The notes under the pieces are model-generated. The model was not told where the DNA came from. It did no database searches and saw only the letters and a list, made by a program, of their open reading frames with translations. The position numbers and the translations under genes were made by a program. A stretch of DNA of 64,000 nt from positions 2,500,789 through 2,564,788 of the forward strand of contig NZ_CM001776.1 in assembly GCF_000332275.1 (NCBI RefSeq), given 5' to 3'. The stretch is from Synechococcus sp. PCC 7336. Lineage in GTDB: Bacteria > Cyanobacteriota > Cyanobacteriia > Thermostichales > PCC-7336. Shown here in pieces: positions 53,429 to 64,000 of the stretch (position 1 is its first letter; each line of letters starts with the position of its first letter).

Positions 53429-53674
53429 GTGGACGAGCAAAGATTACTAGAGCGCATCTCGGTCAATCCCGAGATCTTTGGCGGTAAGCCGATTGTGCGA
53501 GGGCGGCGGCTTGCTGTAGAACATGTTTTAGGAATGCTGGCAGCAGGCGATACACCTGAAACCTTACTAGAGAACTATCCCTGGCTCGAGCCTGAGGATA
53601 TTCAAGCCTGCTTGGCTTACGCCCGTCGCTTAGTGGGTCACGAACGTGTAGAACCACTACTGGTCAGCCAATAG
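53429..53674 (+). CDS. DUF433 antitoxin-like protein
   Basis: 81 residues from GTG 53429. RISVNPEIFGGKPIVRGRRL, then AVEHVLGMLAAGDTPETLLE and YPWLEPEDIQACLAYARRLV are DUF433 hallmarks (winged-helix, VapB-like antitoxin). Its stop is followed one base later by the GTG start of the DUF5615 partner gene, so the two form a classic toxin-antitoxin pair. Confidence 0.92.
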   Translation: MDEQRLLERISVNPEIFGGKPIVRGRRLAVEHVLGMLAAGDTPETLLENYPWLEPEDIQACLAYARRLVGHERVEPLLVSQ

Positions 53675-53675
53675 A

Positions 53676-54026
53676 GTGAAAGTGCTTCTCGATAGTTGCA
53701 TCGGTAAAAGTGTTCGAAAAACACTTGCAACTGCTGGATATGACGTTATTTGGTCAGGCGACTGGGATGAAGATCCAGGGGATGAGGAGATCTTAGCCCA
53801 GGCATTTGAGGAGAGTCGCATTTTAGTCACGCTAGACAAGGATTTTGGAGAGTTGGCGATCGTCAAAGGCTCTCCTCACAAAGGCATACTGCGTCTGGTC
53901 GACCTCAACTCCGAACAGCAAAGCCAAGTCGGTCTTACAGTTCTTAGTCTGTACGGAGATGAACTATCTACAGGTGCCATTATCACTGCTAACTCGACGA
54001 GAGTAAGAATTAGGCCACCTGACTGA
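53676..54026 (+). CDS. DUF5615 PIN-like toxin
   Basis: 116 residues from GTG 53676. MKVLLDSCIGKSVRKTLATA, GDWDEDPGDEEILAQAFEES, RILVTLDKDFGELAIVKGSP. The Asp residues in LLDSC, DPGDEEI and LDKDFGEL fit the PIN-like nuclease site of the DUF5615 family (Mut7-C/VapC-like). Partner of the DUF433 gene. Probably an RNase toxin; target unknown. Confidence 0.9.
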   Translation: MKVLLDSCIGKSVRKTLATAGYDVIWSGDWDEDPGDEEILAQAFEESRILVTLDKDFGELAIVKGSPHKGILRLVDLNSEQQSQVGLTVLSLYGDELSTGAIITANSTRVRIRPPD

Positions 54027-57925: not shown

Positions 57926-60310
57926 CTAAACCCCTGGCTGCCTGCAAAGACCGGCAGACTGCAAGCGATGTTCGTCAAGTTGTACGCGCTTGTTTTCGCC
58001 ACCACTCAGGACTAAGACGCGATCGCCTTCTCGAAACACATCGACAGAGGCGATCGGGTTGTTGGCATCCTGACGAATCTGAACGGGAGTGAAGAAACTG
58101 GCATTACCGCTATCGTCGTAGTTCAGGGGCCAGAGTAAAACCTGCCCGTCAAGACCGCCACTGGCGAGGTAACAGCCATCGGCAGTCAGAGCCACCGATT
58201 GAACTGGTTGGCCGCCGTGGGCTGCGGCTTGGCTGCTGGTGGGCTGGCAGTTGGCTTGGCTGAAGCATTGGGATAGAGACCAAAGGGTGAGGTTGCCTTG
58301 GTTGTCCCCCACGGCCAGAACCTCAGGGCGTTCGATGGCGATGGCGAGAGTAGAAATGAAGCTAACGTCGGGGGGGAGGGTGCCGAGGGGATAACTCAAT
58401 CGCGTCAGGCTCTCGGTCGGCTTGGGCTCGTCCAGGTCGAGCAGATCGAGACGGTTCCGTTGACCGCCAATGGCCAGATAGCGATCGCCATTCCAGCTAA
58501 AGGGAGCAATGGTCTCGATCGCCGTGCAAATCGGCACTCCCGATCGAGTTTGGATGGGAATGGGCTGCAGTTGTCGATTGAGCAATTGAGCGTCGTTACT
58601 CCCGTCTAGCTGCAAATCCCACCGATAGATATTGCCACTGCCGTGAGCGCTCAACAGCACGGAACTGCGAGGCAGGAAGGCCAAATCGAAGACGCGATCG
58701 CTCAAGAGTCGCGTTGCCGGTGTGGCGGTGCTTGCAGCGACGGCCGGGGGAAGGCCGGAGTCCTCTGGTTTGAGCTTGCAAGCTGACAGGTCTTCTGCCC
58801 CATGAAACCTAGAGAGATGCTGGGCGAAGGACGGACGGGATAAACGCTGGGGTAAATTCCACAATTGGATATCGCCATTTTCGTAGCCAACGGCGGCCCA
58901 GGTATTGTCTTCGCGTCGATAGCGGATCGCATGGATGGCAGAAGTGCTAGTGGGGGAAACAGTACCTGCAGCTGGCGGAGGATTGACGATACCGAGAAAC
59001 TGCAAGCGACGACCCCGCACTTGCCATTGGCGCACGGTCGTGTCGAGGGAGCCACTGAGAGCCCTGCCGCCCCCCCCATTAAACTGCACGGTGCTAACGG
59101 GAGCGGCATGGTGCTGCATTTGCGATCGCCAGCGCCAAAACCACAGGGGCAAGACCATCACGAGGGCCAGGAATAAGAGGGCTGCCAACACCTGCAGTAC
59201 AAACGGGACGAGGGGCAATACCTCCAGGCTTAACGGCTGCTGTGGGGGTAGAAGGGGTACATCCGGGCGGGAAAGGGAGCCGGTGGCAGTGAGGGCATAG
59301 CGACGCCGCCATCCCCATCTGGGGCGGATTCTGCGCACCAGCAACGATAGTTCGGTCTCTTCTCCAGGAGGTAGCTCTCGTTGGGGAGGGGCAATTTCCA
59401 GTTGCGGGAGGAGCTCTTCTTCGGTCAGTGCTGCCCGTTCCCAAGCGCGATCGCGGCGCTCGGGGGAGTCGTAGGCGAGGGTGGCAGTGATGGTTTGATG
59501 CAGATTGCTGCGGTTGTGGAACTGGAGGGTATAGAGGGCGGTGTCGAGAACTCGGGCAGATTTTTCGCGGCGGTTGGGCAGTACCTGTTTGGGATTGGGA
59601 CAGGTCAGGGCGATGTCCCCTTCAGGGGCGATCTCCAGATGTCCGGCAACGCTGGCAGGGGCAGGGGAGTGTTGGGTGACAATTTCGAACGGATAGTTTT
59701 GGCTGATGGCGTGGGGAGCAGGAGGGACTTGTACGGCGAAGGCTACTTTGGTACTGCCCCGTCCTTCGATCTGGATCGGGCATTCTGCCCCTTGAGGCAG
59801 CCAAGCAGCATCGAGCTGGCGACAGAGCAAGCTGTCCCGCAGGGGGAGGCGGTTCGGATTGTTGACCGTCACCTCGATCTGGGCAGTTCCCCCGGCAGGG
59901 ACTGAGATGGGGGTCTCGGCGAGGGACAGTTGCAGGGGCTCGATCGCACTGCCCTCGATCTCCAAACGCACCACTGCGGGCGGCGGCTCTGTATCGATTT
60001 GAGGGGAGATAGCCCGCACGCTCAGATTCATCAAGCCGGCGTAATGGGGTTTGGGATTGGCAATAATCGCCACTTCAAACTCGGTGGAGTCCCAAGGGGG
60101 AATATTCACGCCCGTGTCGGGGGAGACGCGGTACCAACGGCGATCGGCAGGCACCTGAATGCCTGCCGCGATGACTTCTAGCCAAAATGACACCCGACGG
60201 GGGGCCAGATTGGTCACTTTGACCTGCAATTTGGCCGGATCGCCCCCTGGGGTGTAGGTCAACTGTGGGGGGGTGACAGCAATGCTGTAGTCAATCTTTG
60301 CAGTAGCCAT
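57926..60310 (-). CDS. Ig-like / transmembrane / WD40-repeat protein in an injection-system operon
   Basis: 794 residues. Residues about 1-350: two or three beta-sandwich (Ig-like) segments (LQVKVTNLAPRRVSFWLEVI; FEVAIIANPKPHYAGLMNLS; AQIEVTVNNPNRLPLRDSLL). About 367-392: a single hydrophobic helix (LVPFVLQVLAALLFLALVMV) followed by basic residues. About 401-775: WD40-like repeats (APVSTVQFNGGGGRALSGSL, DTTVRQW, VQSVALTADGCYLASGGLDG, VLLWPLN). It is the last gene of four on the minus strand, with 3 bp between it and the Cache/HAMP gene. Probably membrane-anchored, with the propeller on one side and the Ig-like part on the other. Confidence 0.8.
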   Translation of the reverse strand: MATAKIDYSIAVTPPQLTYTPGGDPAKLQVKVTNLAPRRVSFWLEVIAAGIQVPADRRWYRVSPDTGVNIPPWDSTEFEVAIIANPKPHYAGLMNLSVRAISPQIDTEPPPAVVRLEIEGSAIEPLQLSLAETPISVPAGGTAQIEVTVNNPNRLPLRDSLLCRQLDAAWLPQGAECPIQIEGRGSTKVAFAVQVPPAPHAISQNYPFEIVTQHSPAPASVAGHLEIAPEGDIALTCPNPKQVLPNRREKSARVLDTALYTLQFHNRSNLHQTITATLAYDSPERRDRAWERAALTEEELLPQLEIAPPQRELPPGEETELSLLVRRIRPRWGWRRRYALTATGSLSRPDVPLLPPQQPLSLEVLPLVPFVLQVLAALLFLALVMVLPLWFWRWRSQMQHHAAPVSTVQFNGGGGRALSGSLDTTVRQWQVRGRRLQFLGIVNPPPAAGTVSPTSTSAIHAIRYRREDNTWAAVGYENGDIQLWNLPQRLSRPSFAQHLSRFHGAEDLSACKLKPEDSGLPPAVAASTATPATRLLSDRVFDLAFLPRSSVLLSAHGSGNIYRWDLQLDGSNDAQLLNRQLQPIPIQTRSGVPICTAIETIAPFSWNGDRYLAIGGQRNRLDLLDLDEPKPTESLTRLSYPLGTLPPDVSFISTLAIAIERPEVLAVGDNQGNLTLWSLSQCFSQANCQPTSSQAAAHGGQPVQSVALTADGCYLASGGLDGQVLLWPLNYDDSGNASFFTPVQIRQDANNPIASVDVFREGDRVLVLSGGENKRVQLDEHRLQSAGLCRQPGV

Positions 60311-60313
60311 GCG

Positions 60314-62020
60314 TCACTTTTCGCCCCCCTGAATGTCCTGCTGGGCGATCGCGCGCACGTGACGCGAGCGGGCTCGCAGGGAATTCAAGTACTGAAATAG
60401 CGCCGACCCCTCCTGTCGTTCGTTCAACTGTTTTTCCAGCTCGCCGATCTTTTGCTTGTATTTGACAATCCGATCGTCCACCGATGCTCCCATTTGCTGT
60501 AGCGTTTCTGCCAGCTCGCCGAGCTCGTCAGATCGTTTGGTCATGGCTCCAATACTTTCGGGCTTGTAGCGATCGTGTTCGATGTCGTCTGCTGCTCGAC
60601 TCAATCTCTGTAGAGGTTTAGTAATCCAGATTCGACCGAATAAGGCACCGCCAATCACAAAGACGAGCACCAAGCCAACCACCGTCAAGCCAGTATTCCG
60701 CCGTCCCTCAATTAATCTATCCAGAAACTCCCGCTCGGGAATTACCTCAATCACAAACCAATCTTGAGGTTGCATCGCCAACTTGGAAAGAACCACAATC
60801 ATCTGCCCTCCAGCAATGCCATTCGAATCGTCTGCACTATTCGATCCTGCAAACGAAAATTTGCAGATCGTCCCGAGGCAAGCCTCTGGATCGATACCAG
60901 CAAATCCGCCAGACTCGGCAAATTTTGTATTTAAGAACTGATAAGTATCGCGGATGAGTTGATGGTCGCTATATTGTAAGGATCTCGGAGGGATGCAGTT
61001 CGGATCGGGATTATCAGTCGAACAGGTTTCGAGGGATTCTTGCAGAGAACTGGCAATAAACTGCCCTGAATCGTTCGTGACAAAAAACGGGTTGAGAGAG
61101 CTGACTGGAGCCCCTGCAGCCAGACCGGCTAGTAAGTCATTCACGTTATCGGCGGGTAAGTCGATCGCCAAAATACCGCCAAAGATCGGGTTGTCACTCG
61201 GATTGTTCTGGCCGTCCTTCTCTGTACTGAGAATCGGAATTCTAGGAGTCACTCCAATTTCGTTACCGGCGAATACGTATACTTCTCCAATATCCTCTTG
61301 GCATAAGAGGAGGTCACTACAATTGGTAATTGCTTCTAGCCCTTCTACGTACCAAGGTCGCTGGGCCAGTGCGAAGTCGGTGGAGGCCGTAGAATTAATT
61401 GGAATCGAGGGGTTTCCAGACAGCGTCTCGATGTAGTTACCACTGTCATCCAGAGGATACGTGAGTAATTGGCCAGATGTCCACGAAGCCAAAATCTTCA
61501 CGATGAATCCGCTATCCAGCTCTTCGATTTTGACAAAAATATCTCCAGAGAATGTCGGATCGTCCTGAATGTTCGCAATATTGGAATTACCCCGAACGCT
61601 CTGACTTAAGGCGGGATTGCTGGCAGCATTGCCAAAGAGCATGGAGCGAATAGATGGCGAGTTTTTCACCGATAGATATAAAAAATCTCGAATTCTTTGC
61701 ACGTACTCCGCTTCCGAACAACTGGCTCGACCAGCACAAAAATCCGATGCCACTAACGGAACATCTCCACCGATCGCTGCCGCCTGACTAATCCGCAAAA
61801 TTGTTTCCGAATCTTGCAGAAAAGATTCCATCACTTGAGCGTTGTTGCGGCTAATTCGCTCGATTAATGATGCTGAAATCTCTTGAATCGCTGTTGTACC
61901 GCCGCGATCGGTGAAAAACCAGGAGAACAGGCCGGTAAGGCTCACCAAGACAAAGACGACACTGGGGAGCAAAATCCGAATGGACGGCACGAGCGATCGC
62001 TGGGAATAGGAATCGGCCAT
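60314..62020 (-). CDS. dCache-HAMP membrane receptor without output domain
   Basis: 568 residues. Membrane helix 1 about residues 14-36 (IRILLPSVVFVLVSLTGLFS), a long extracytoplasmic dCache-type sensor (FALAQRPWYVEGLEAI; PIFGGILAIDLPADNVNDLL; FFVTNDSGQFIASSLQESL; QPQDWFVIEVIPEREFLDRL), helix 2 near residue 465 (TGLTVVGLVLVFVIGGALFG), then HAMP (ITKPLQRLSRAADDIEHDRY to ELGELAETLQQM) and a short coiled coil ending in a basic tail. No kinase, cyclase or chemotaxis domain follows. Lies between genes of a phage-tail-like system with 12 and 3 bp spacing, so it probably belongs to that system. Confidence 0.82.
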   Translation of the reverse strand: MADSYSQRSLVPSIRILLPSVVFVLVSLTGLFSWFFTDRGGTTAIQEISASLIERISRNNAQVMESFLQDSETILRISQAAAIGGDVPLVASDFCAGRASCSEAEYVQRIRDFLYLSVKNSPSIRSMLFGNAASNPALSQSVRGNSNIANIQDDPTFSGDIFVKIEELDSGFIVKILASWTSGQLLTYPLDDSGNYIETLSGNPSIPINSTASTDFALAQRPWYVEGLEAITNCSDLLLCQEDIGEVYVFAGNEIGVTPRIPILSTEKDGQNNPSDNPIFGGILAIDLPADNVNDLLAGLAAGAPVSSLNPFFVTNDSGQFIASSLQESLETCSTDNPDPNCIPPRSLQYSDHQLIRDTYQFLNTKFAESGGFAGIDPEACLGTICKFSFAGSNSADDSNGIAGGQMIVVLSKLAMQPQDWFVIEVIPEREFLDRLIEGRRNTGLTVVGLVLVFVIGGALFGRIWITKPLQRLSRAADDIEHDRYKPESIGAMTKRSDELGELAETLQQMGASVDDRIVKYKQKIGELEKQLNERQEGSALFQYLNSLRARSRHVRAIAQQDIQGGEK

Positions 62021-62032
62021 AGTCTCAGTCCG

Positions 62033-63403
62033 CTAGGAGTGGGGGGTAGAGGTCTCGACTTGAAGCTCGCGCAGGTGTCGCCGAGCCCAGGCAAAGTGGA
62101 GGAGATTGGCCCCGAGTTCCTGGGCCTCCCGCACCGTTTCGCGAGGGATATCGGGGGATTTAGACCCCCCCCAACCCGTGCCCAGATCGCCGATCGCCAG
62201 TACGACTGCCTCCCAGTTAAACAGCAGAATTAGCCCCCGATTCACCATTGGAAAACGGGAGAAGGTGAAGGGCCGGGAGCGCAGCGGGTGAGTGGAATCG
62301 ATCTGGGCTCCCCCTGTCGGAATGGAGCTCCAATCGAGATCGAGCGTTTCTCTCAGGGTTTGGCGCAAATTTTGCAAGAGGCGATCGACCACCGGCTGAT
62401 TCGCGAGCAGTTCTCCCTCTAAATCCTTGCGAATATCGTCATAGAGCCGATCCTCCCGCACGTCCTCGATCGCCTCTCGCAGGTGTTGTTGAACCAAAGC
62501 TAGCTCGTCAATGTGGGTTTGGCTGGCATCCATCGTGACGAGGAGGGTTGCTCCGTCAGTCAGGAGTTGGTTGAGGCTGCCGAGCTCGGAGCGAGACAGG
62601 GCAGATAACTGCCAGTAGTTGGCCATTAACAGGTCGATCTGCGGGCGATCGCCTCCATCCGCTGGCAAGCGCAGCAGGCCGAGATGCTGCCCCTGCAGAT
62701 CGGGATAGACGCTGGGCAACGCCTGCAGCAGGGCATCCACGCCAGCGAGCTCGGAATCTATACTGTCTTCGGCGGGCGGCACTGCAGCTGCGCAATCTAA
62801 ATGGGCAATGGTGAGGCTGGATTGCGATCGCGCGCCCAATTGGGGTCGAAAGCGAAAGTCGATGTTGTTGGCCAGGGGATGGAACGGATCGCGAGCATTC
62901 GCCAGGACAACGGGGTCGGGAGAGAGCAGAATGCGACAGACTTCGATTTCGTCGGGGTTCGGGGGTGTGGATTTCTCGTAGAGGCGAAAGTCCTCCTGCA
63001 GGCGATCGCCCACAAACCGTTCGGCCACTGCTGCGGGGTCGAAAAAGCTGATGACGAGATAAACCAACAGAGGACGCTCGGATTGAGCTCGGGAGACGAG
63101 GTAGTAGGGCTCTGGCTGAGGTACCACAACTGGGTTGCCCGCCGCATCAATCGCGATTCCGGGCTGTAGTTGCAGCCAGCGATCGCCTCGATATTCGCTC
63201 GGGGTGTTGGGGGGAGGGGCGATCGGATGCACCCCTAGTCCGTGCAGAATGCCGCCTCGGTGGAGGGCCTGATAGTGCAGGTTTTGACGGCGGCTGTGGT
63301 AAGAGTGGGCCAGTTGCCAGCCTTCTGCGTCCACGAGCAAGCCGTCGTAGATTTTGAGGCGCTCGAAGGGTTGAATGGGGGTGTGGGAAGGGGAGACAAC
63401 CAT
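62033..63403 (-). CDS. Tail-associated protein with DUF4159-like C-terminal part
   Basis: 456 residues. N-terminal FERLKIYDGLLVDAEGWQLA, then SYHSRRQNLHYQALHRGGIL and HGLGVHPI with WLQLQPGIAIDAAGNPVVVP, a pattern (RYFDGxLL ... HxxLHGxGVVxGL ... PGxAxDxxG) common to proteins in contractile injection system clusters. C-terminal half (IDLLMANYWQLSALSRSELG, SLNQLLTDGATLLVTMDAS, NRGLILLFNWEAVVLAIGDL, RETVREAQELGANLLHFAWA) resembles DUF4159. Probably a baseplate- or anchor-associated component; the exact role is unknown. Confidence 0.65.
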   Translation of the reverse strand: MVVSPSHTPIQPFERLKIYDGLLVDAEGWQLAHSYHSRRQNLHYQALHRGGILHGLGVHPIAPPPNTPSEYRGDRWLQLQPGIAIDAAGNPVVVPQPEPYYLVSRAQSERPLLVYLVISFFDPAAVAERFVGDRLQEDFRLYEKSTPPNPDEIEVCRILLSPDPVVLANARDPFHPLANNIDFRFRPQLGARSQSSLTIAHLDCAAAVPPAEDSIDSELAGVDALLQALPSVYPDLQGQHLGLLRLPADGGDRPQIDLLMANYWQLSALSRSELGSLNQLLTDGATLLVTMDASQTHIDELALVQQHLREAIEDVREDRLYDDIRKDLEGELLANQPVVDRLLQNLRQTLRETLDLDWSSIPTGGAQIDSTHPLRSRPFTFSRFPMVNRGLILLFNWEAVVLAIGDLGTGWGGSKSPDIPRETVREAQELGANLLHFAWARRHLRELQVETSTPHS

Positions 63404-63448
63404 AGCGAACGGGGGTCGGGGTTAAAGGGATAGCTTGAGGGCGAGACT

Positions 63449-64000
63449 TCAAGCAGTTGAGGGGGGAGGTCGGTCGGGGGCGATCGTCAGATCGTAGCTG
63501 CAGAAAGCCGGTTTTTCTTGCTCGATGATGGTCCGTACGAGGGCTTCGTCCACGACATCGGTGGGTCCCGGGCGCAGGATAACGGCAAAGTGAAAGGGAC
63601 GTCCCCGCCCCAACAAGCTGTCTTCGCCCATATGGGCTTGGCCGAGCACCAGCCCTCGGGCAAAGCTTTCGCGGATCTCGATGCGGGGCGGACGGTTGGG
63701 GGGGAGCGTCTCGAGATCCTCCAGCGGCAAGCCAGTGTAGAGGTGGAGGTAATGACGCAACCCCCGCTGCGTCCCGCGCCAGCGATAAATCTCTACCGCT
63801 TGTCGAATGAGCCTGCGCCGCTGCGGCTCGCTCCAGCGCTGATTGTCGACCCAGCCCACCCAATAGGCTAAAAAGGGCAGGAATTTAGCCGGTGCCGTGA
63901 GCGGATCGAGGTGGGCCCACATCGCGTCCAGTGCCTGCACGTCTGGCTCGAATGCCTGCTCGGCGATCGCCAAGAAACGACCGATAAAGTCCACTTCGCG
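63449..64000 (-). CDS. Phage-tail-I / TIGR02242-like baseplate protein (5' end uncertain)
   Basis: At least 181 residues from GTG 63994; the frame is open to the window edge, so the true start may lie outside. FLAIAEQAFEPDVQALDAMW, then HLDPLTAPAKFLPFLAYWVG, WSEPQRRRLIRQAVEIYRWR and GTQRGLRHYLHLYTGLPLED match the P2 gpI-like tail domain found in contractile injection systems. It is a baseplate wedge component in such particles. First gene visible of the minus-strand operon; sheath, tube and other baseplate genes should lie beyond 64000. Confidence 0.85.
   Translation of the reverse strand, partial: REVDFIGRFLAIAEQAFEPDVQALDAMWAHLDPLTAPAKFLPFLAYWVGWVDNQRWSEPQRRRLIRQAVEIYRWRGTQRGLRHYLHLYTGLPLEDLETLPPNRPPRIEIRESFARGLVLGQAHMGEDSLLGRGRPFHFAVILRPGPTDVVDEALVRTIIEQEKPAFCSYDLTIAPDRPPPSTA

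Follow-up and report, generated by a model that had tools for sequence, protein, structure and literature searches.

A baseplate gene cluster with a predicted membrane protein and a Cache-HAMP receptor in cyanobacterial contractile injection systems

Baseplate, fibre, receptor and membrane genes at the window end

The window analyzed here is a 64,000-nucleotide stretch (C1:2500789-2564788) of the single-contig, 5.07-Mb genome of the cyanobacterium Synechococcus sp. PCC 7336, and its last genes encode baseplate proteins of a contractile injection system (CIS) together with a receptor and a predicted membrane protein (hereafter, WD1). From past the window end inwards, the minus-strand order is gp25, TIGR02243 baseplate-J, TIGR02242/Tail_P2_I, a fibre-like gene (hereafter, FIB), a dCache-HAMP receptor and WD1, with intergenic gaps of 45, 12 and 3 bp in succession 3' of the TIGR02242 gene. 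An earlier note on this DNA had placed the part of the cluster within the window at the right coordinates, on the right strand and in the right order, and its 12-bp and 3-bp spacings were exact. The upstream boundary, at the gp25 end, is a divergent gene for a 1921-aa (amino acid) alpha-2-macroglobulin-like lipoprotein (L004:5194-10959), and a plus-strand oxidase-like gene lies downstream. The features, with transmembrane (TM) and immunoglobulin-like (Ig-like) regions as predicted, are as follows.

57926-60310, minus strand: WD1, predicted single-pass membrane protein, 794 aa (open reading frame, Pfam WD40, AlphaFold model, PDB propeller matches)
57965-59098, minus strand: WD40 propeller of WD1, residues 405-782 (Pfam, model, PDB matches)
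59120-59203, minus strand: TM helix of WD1, residues 370-397 (model helix, hydropathy)
59219-60289, minus strand: Ig-like domains of WD1, residues 8-364, predicted cytosolic (model, hhalign)
60314-62020, minus strand: receptor, 568 aa, with TM1, dCache extracytoplasmic domain, TM2, HAMP and a short coiled coil (Pfam HAMP, homologue alignment)
60482-60628, minus strand: HAMP domain of the receptor, residues 465-513 (Pfam PF00672)
62033-63403, minus strand: FIB, fibre/adaptor-like, CIS13_fam-related, 456 aa (NF053767, model), kept between the baseplate genes and WD1 across clusters (gene order)
63449-64000, minus strand: Cis12-like TIGR02242/Tail_P2_I baseplate protein, 365 aa, cut by the window end (whole gene at window-equivalent 63449-64546)
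window-equivalent 64543-66795, minus strand: TIGR02243 baseplate-J, 750 aa, past the window end
window-equivalent 66827-67243, minus strand: gp25, 138 aa, past the window end

The tail protein was correctly assigned to TIGR02242 (125.5 bits; 365 aa when complete), and baseplate-J matched TIGR02243 with an E-value of 2e-171. Streptomyces Cis12 (9GTP chain E, 190 aa) aligns with residues 176-277 alone of the 365-aa protein, which indicates that the N-terminal Ig region of the latter is an addition. Residues 49-117 of this region are related to the Ig region of WD1 (residues 150-218; hhalign probability 91%).

WD1 had been described as an Ig/TM/WD40 protein, and this architecture held: WD40 was detected by Pfam, and the AlphaFold model (pLDDT 83) comprises Ig-like domains up to residue 364, one helix at residues 370-397 and a propeller at residues 405-782 that matches solved seven-bladed WD40 domains, including that of bacterial PkwA. 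An N-terminal signal peptide was found in none of 46 WD1 homologues, and by prediction WD1 crosses the membrane once. A second Ig/TM protein, WD2 (740-950 aa; for example L056:12457-15105), usually follows WD1, even when both are unlinked from tail genes; it is related to the same N-terminal residues 49-117 of the TIGR02242 protein (hhalign 93%), and in this genome it stands alone at 3.343 Mb (G000:C1:3343026-3345356).

The gene at 62033-63403 had been labelled DUF4159-like, and this label was mistaken: Pfam and NCBIfam scans ruled out DUF4159 and returned a weak match to CIS13_fam instead (NF053767, E 9.8e-9). The FIB model (pLDDT 90) has a fold of the tail-fibre/receptor-binding type, receptor-binding proteins and tail-fibre proteins are among its viral matches (best E 9e-5), and its best PDB matches, all weak (E 2e-3 to 6e-3), are TssK and the baseplate of the Anabaena CIS. 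FIB is probably related to Cis13, since its profile also matches open reading frames in Anabaena-type loci. No convincing TM helix was found in FIB, its one marginal hydrophobic stretch being a beta-strand in the model, and sequence searches of FIB and of the WD1 Ig region against the PDB returned nothing convincing. TssK joins the baseplate of the type VI secretion system (T6SS) to its membrane complex; the match of the FIB model to it (5Y0E, E 2e-3) is a partial alignment below firm significance, and Pfam and NCBIfam scans of the cluster, which were not extended to a genome-wide search, detected no family of the TssJLM membrane complex. FIB was found in three plasmid records and in no phage record. 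At a distance from the baseplate genes, FIB, WD1 and WD2 also occur together as an independent unit that carries a FIB paralogue of its own (L264-L272).

The earlier reading of the gene at 60314-62020 as a dCache-HAMP receptor was borne out in two ways, HAMP being detected by Pfam and the dCache domain, which falls below Pfam detection in the window receptor, by full-length alignment with cluster homologues that show dCache_1. Among 26 cluster receptors scanned, HAMP was detected in 25, dCache_1 in 23, a C-terminal cNMP_binding domain in 5 (L133, L043, L111, L140 and L101) and a Tll0287-type input domain instead of dCache in one, which is among the five with cNMP_binding. None of the 26 has a kinase, cyclase, methyl-accepting (MA) or chemotaxis output domain, and the same domain scan found no DNA-binding domain; they consist of a sensor and HAMP, with cNMP_binding in the five, and are thus unlike chemoreceptors and sensor kinases, which carry an MA, kinase or cyclase output. 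The swapped input domains and the occasional cNMP_binding domain fit what is expected of a signal input.

Co-occurrence of WD1 with the injection system and location of its other parts

The comparison of cyanobacterial TIGR02242 neighbourhoods that the earlier note had proposed was made by locating TIGR02242 across 242 cyanobacterial genomes and reading about 70 of the surrounding loci. A search profile built on the Ig and TM region of WD1, from cluster members, detected WD1 in 66 of the 70 genomes with a stand-alone TIGR02242 and in none of the 172 others (Fisher p 4e-55, uncorrected for relatedness of the genomes); the four TIGR02242 genomes without it are assemblies that are 79-91% complete. 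A sheath of this type is present in 67 of the 70. The machine with WD1 therefore occurs in about 27% of the sampled cyanobacterial species (66/242) and is widespread. Many families retain the order gp25-J-TIGR02242-FIB-(receptor)-WD1-(WD2), and WD1 itself was found in more than seven GTDB families and also in Gloeobacterales, cyanobacteria without thylakoids, where one record (JACMLN010000193.1) carries the J and TIGR02242 genes.

Because the WD1 profile came from cluster members, a second test used an alignment of J. Scanning named genomes with it yielded 80 loci, 28 of which, mostly from Nostocales, have FIB but no adjacent WD1. True absence of WD1 from these genomes was considered and rejected, as all 23 of those searched have a gene for full-length WD1 at another place; in the regions that were read, WD2 usually comes after it. 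WD1 thus belongs to the core of this lineage, whether or not it is linked to the baseplate genes.

The receptor is distributed differently. A HAMP receptor is present at the locus in 27 of 46 WD1 clusters, spanning seven GTDB families, nearly always between FIB and WD1 and with short gaps around it (median about 45 bp); Leptolyngbya sp. PCC 6406, for example, has WD1 without a receptor. Two genomes that lack a receptor in this slot have a receptor match elsewhere: in G112 it sits at the sheath locus (L277), and in G161 the sheath gene is about 16 kb from it. An exclusive tie of the receptor family to CIS was rejected, as similar Cache-HAMP-coil proteins of about 500 aa with the C-terminal motif FFQDLxxKAxxLR occur elsewhere. 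This wider family, without an output domain and with the conserved FFQDLxxKAxxLR end, was seen in non-CIS contexts at L041, L044, L045 and L057-L060. Given its presence in 27 of 46 clusters, its varied input domains and a wider family that is not CIS-specific, we conclude that the receptor is a frequent, exchangeable input rather than a core part.

These distributions bear on whether the receptor and WD40 genes are simply ordinary signalling genes that happen to adjoin tail genes. Cache-HAMP and WD40 genes are abundant in cyanobacteria, and the receptor profile matches 187 of the 242 genomes at 1e-20. The presence and absence of WD1, however, track the CIS almost perfectly, even where the two are unlinked, and the gene order is shared by seven families, so that chance adjacency is hardly credible. 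The earlier note had held that finding the Cache and WD40 genes in most genomes without tail genes would speak against a dedicated module; this is not so for WD1 (0/172) and partly true for the Cache-HAMP superfamily. Obligatory co-occurrence with a CIS would equally fit an immunity protein, with WD1 and the receptor guarding the producer's membrane against its own CIS rather than triggering it. An immunity protein usually pairs with an effector and varies along with it, whereas WD1 is a single conserved family tied to baseplate genes, and we regard such self-protection as very improbable.

In the DNA past position 64000, where the earlier note had expected sheath, tube, baseplate-J and AAA+ genes, we found gp25 and baseplate-J; no sheath, tube or AAA+ gene adjoins the cluster, and a sheath beside it in this genome was accordingly rejected. 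An AAA+ gene, genes for two Pvc16-like proteins, a 563-aa sheath gene and genes for three tube proteins lie together 1.6 Mb away (C1:4.15-4.16 Mb), and a lone VgrG spike gene at C1:1.779 Mb encodes a protein 61% identical to the spike inside the Pseudanabaena version of the cluster. The CIS component set (sheath, tube, gp25, baseplate-J, Cis12, spike and AAA+) is therefore complete in the genome, which holds three sheath matches and two gp25 genes in all. The parts of this CIS are spread over four or more sites, of which the window locus supplies the baseplate and membrane genes. A single cluster is not an absolute criterion for a CIS, and in relatives the genes are linked or near: the sheath gene is divergent to the baseplate genes in one genome (G215) and 8-11 kb away in two others (G141 and G161), and in Pseudanabaena sp. 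ABRG5-3, plasmid ABRG53d carries VgrG, PAAR, gp25, J, TIGR02242, FIB, a 'cache domain-containing protein' and WD1 consecutively. The lack of adjacent sheath or tube genes, which the earlier note had taken as evidence against its idea, is real in this genome and yet does not refute it: in relatives the sheath gene lies next to these genes or a short distance away, and the sheath that this genome encodes elsewhere shares up to 73% identity with the sheaths of those relatives. By analogy with these relatives, the scattered parts probably work together here.

Separately, the Pseudanabaena cluster lies beside nitrogen-fixation genes on a 125-kb plasmid (NZ_AP017564.1, L278). In Synechococcus sp. 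PCC 7336, a third locus (L006, C1:3604 kb) has a 290-aa sheath-type open reading frame beside a 693-aa CIS13-like one and looks partial or frame-broken.

Relation to Streptomyces, thylakoid-anchored and haloarchaeal systems

CIS, and membrane proteins that serve them (CisA, Cis13, Hbor_38620), are already known. Among solved structures, the lineage described here is closest to the cytoplasmic CIS of Streptomyces. The best PDB match of the sheath is 8BKY (E 2e-105, against only 1e-50 for Anabaena All3325), and baseplate-J matches 9GTP with an E-value of 7e-151 compared with 2e-10 for Anabaena All3317; both entries were confirmed as Streptomyces CIS structures. The closeness of sheath, Cis11 and Cis12 to the Streptomyces coelicolor proteins is a ranking among solved structures, with no tree behind it.

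The Streptomyces system also has a dedicated membrane protein. The gene for CisA comes right after cis11 and sco4243 and occurs in 79% of CIS-positive strains and in no CIS-negative strain. Its 468-aa product has an N-in/C-out topology and is needed for firing and contraction of particles that are otherwise free; the N-terminus is unstructured, and the extracytoplasmic C-terminal domain, which is solute-binding-like, has been proposed to sense stress (PMC10066040, PMC12237407). Each system thus has a membrane protein, single-pass by prediction in the case of WD1, that is encoded just downstream of cis11/cis12 and absent from CIS-negative strains. They differ in that WD1, compared by description, combines ordered Ig domains with a WD40 propeller in place of the CisA architecture, in that FIB and a separate receptor are present here, the Streptomyces system having no fibre protein and no reported receptor of this kind in its cluster, and in the added N-terminal Ig region of Cis12.

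In the thylakoid-anchored CIS (tCIS) of Anabaena sp. PCC 7120, particles are permanently anchored via a TM helix of Cis13 and an extension of Cis12 (PMC8894136), and fire in lysing or ghost cells only. Both tCIS and the present system, known here from its genes, are cyanobacterial contractile systems, and both have a Cis13-type protein if FIB is indeed related to it; if docking on WD1 takes place, both would also have particles fixed to a membrane of the cell. The C-terminal TM helix of Cis13 and the long extension of Cis12 that mark a tCIS are, by contrast, not a feature of the window cluster, whose FIB lacks a credible TM helix and whose Cis12 is 365 aa long, and the sheath and Cis11 are distant. 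As the nearest solved relative is the Streptomyces cytoplasmic CIS and WD1 occurs in the thylakoid-less Gloeobacterales, the machine is not of the thylakoid-anchored type, and the window cluster as a tCIS was rejected. The tCIS relative in this genome is another locus (L008, G000:C1:2647001-2667000, with the CIS at 2647-2660 kb), whose J matches Anabaena All3317 (E about 0) and whose sheath matches All3325 (E 2e-196); judged by these matches, L008 is a separate CIS closely related to that of Anabaena.

Hbor_38620, of a haloarchaeal T6SS-like CIS, is a conserved putative membrane anchor of one CIS clade and is absent from CIS-negative species; it differs from WD1 in its six predicted TM helices and 150-residue cytosolic domain, and has no Ig, WD40 or sensor parts (PMC11566945). 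We found no literature joining CIS with a cache domain, and papers joining contractile injection with WD40 looked unrelated from their titles and abstracts, in a search that did not extend to preprints or most subscription papers. The module of an Ig-TM-WD40 core protein and a Cache-HAMP receptor in CIS clusters, which the earlier note did not recognise as described, thus appears to be undescribed in searchable papers.

Proposed docking and gating at the producer's own membrane

A near-constant membrane protein of its own and a frequent receptor suggest that the machine is docked to the membrane of the cell that makes it and fires on a sensed signal. We therefore favour, with moderate confidence, a cytoplasmic CIS whose baseplate would dock on WD1 and be gated by the neighbouring receptor. 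The particle would be assembled in the cytoplasm, with gp25, TIGR02243 (Cis11) and TIGR02242 (Cis12) building a wedge that FIB decorates. FIB and the related Ig domain of Cis12 would then dock on the Ig domains of WD1 in the cytosol, bringing the particle to the cell's own membrane in a role like that of Streptomyces CisA. Outside the membrane, the dCache-HAMP receptor would sense a small molecule or a stress signal; via its HAMP domain and short coiled coil, it may control docking or firing directly, by contact and not through a kinase, as its lack of an enzymatic output suggests. Firing would act on the producer's own envelope. The more specific proposal that a dCache or Tll0287 sensor with HAMP is wired via WD1 to the baseplate, so that a ligand triggers docking and firing without a kinase or transcription step, is tentative, and we would sooner doubt than accept it in that full form.

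An anchoring or signal-gated firing module, as the earlier note had put it with thylakoid-anchored particles in mind, is what the comparative data best support, although on a machine that is not thylakoid-anchored and with both functions as likely roles rather than observed ones. WD1 (with FIB) might instead hold particles at the membrane constitutively, the receptor tuning expression or something unrelated, as would be consistent with a near-universal WD1, an optional receptor, Cache-HAMP proteins away from CIS genes and the permanent anchoring of tCIS, there through Cis12 and Cis13. On the other hand, the receptor could not regulate expression through a DNA-binding, kinase or cyclase domain, as it has none of these. 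Streptomyces, the relative whose sheath is closest, makes free particles that do not contract without CisA, and the Gloeobacterales that carry WD1 have no thylakoids. A constitutive anchor is accordingly unlikely, if still the strongest of the competing explanations.

The orientation of WD1 bears on which side the machine acts. Across homologues, lysine and arginine are more frequent in the N-terminal than in the C-terminal TM flank (1.46 vs 0.85 per 15 residues, p 0.011, kinship ignored), a family-wide bias that favours N-in. With the Ig domains outside and the propeller inside, WD1 would instead be an adhesin or trans-envelope part of a CIS fired at neighbours in a T6SS-like manner. This would suit the frequency of Ig-like domains in adhesins, the positive C-terminal TM flank (wfwrwr) in the WD1 of the window and the weak TssK-like match of FIB. 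This orientation would, however, require translocation of a 350-residue N-terminal domain in a family where none of the 46 homologues has a signal peptide, and Cis12, a baseplate protein that is cytosolic, contains an Ig domain of this family too. We consider an outward-facing device improbable.

Several observations weigh against docking and gating as set out above. The sheath and tube genes are remote from the cluster in this genome. The topology signal of WD1 is weak, with a p-value that ignores relatedness, and the more positive flank of the window's own WD1 is the C-terminal one. WD1 and CisA may not be homologous, a propeller standing where CisA has a solute-binding-like domain, and the protein contacts of the scheme are putative. 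Gating by the receptor cannot be universal, because 19 of the 46 WD1 clusters have none next to WD1 and members of its family are also found outside CIS loci. The docking and gating scheme is least certain in the topology of WD1 and in the target of the receptor, which may be the particle or something different.

The scheme touches the question of how cell-internal CIS are told when to fire. Many strains encode, next to the machine, a candidate trigger whose ligand-binding domains can be identified, which makes this question directly testable.

Elsewhere in the window, two adjacent small genes at 53429-54026 (81 and 116 aa), judged by their sequence, resemble a toxin-antitoxin pair of the DUF433/DUF5615 type.

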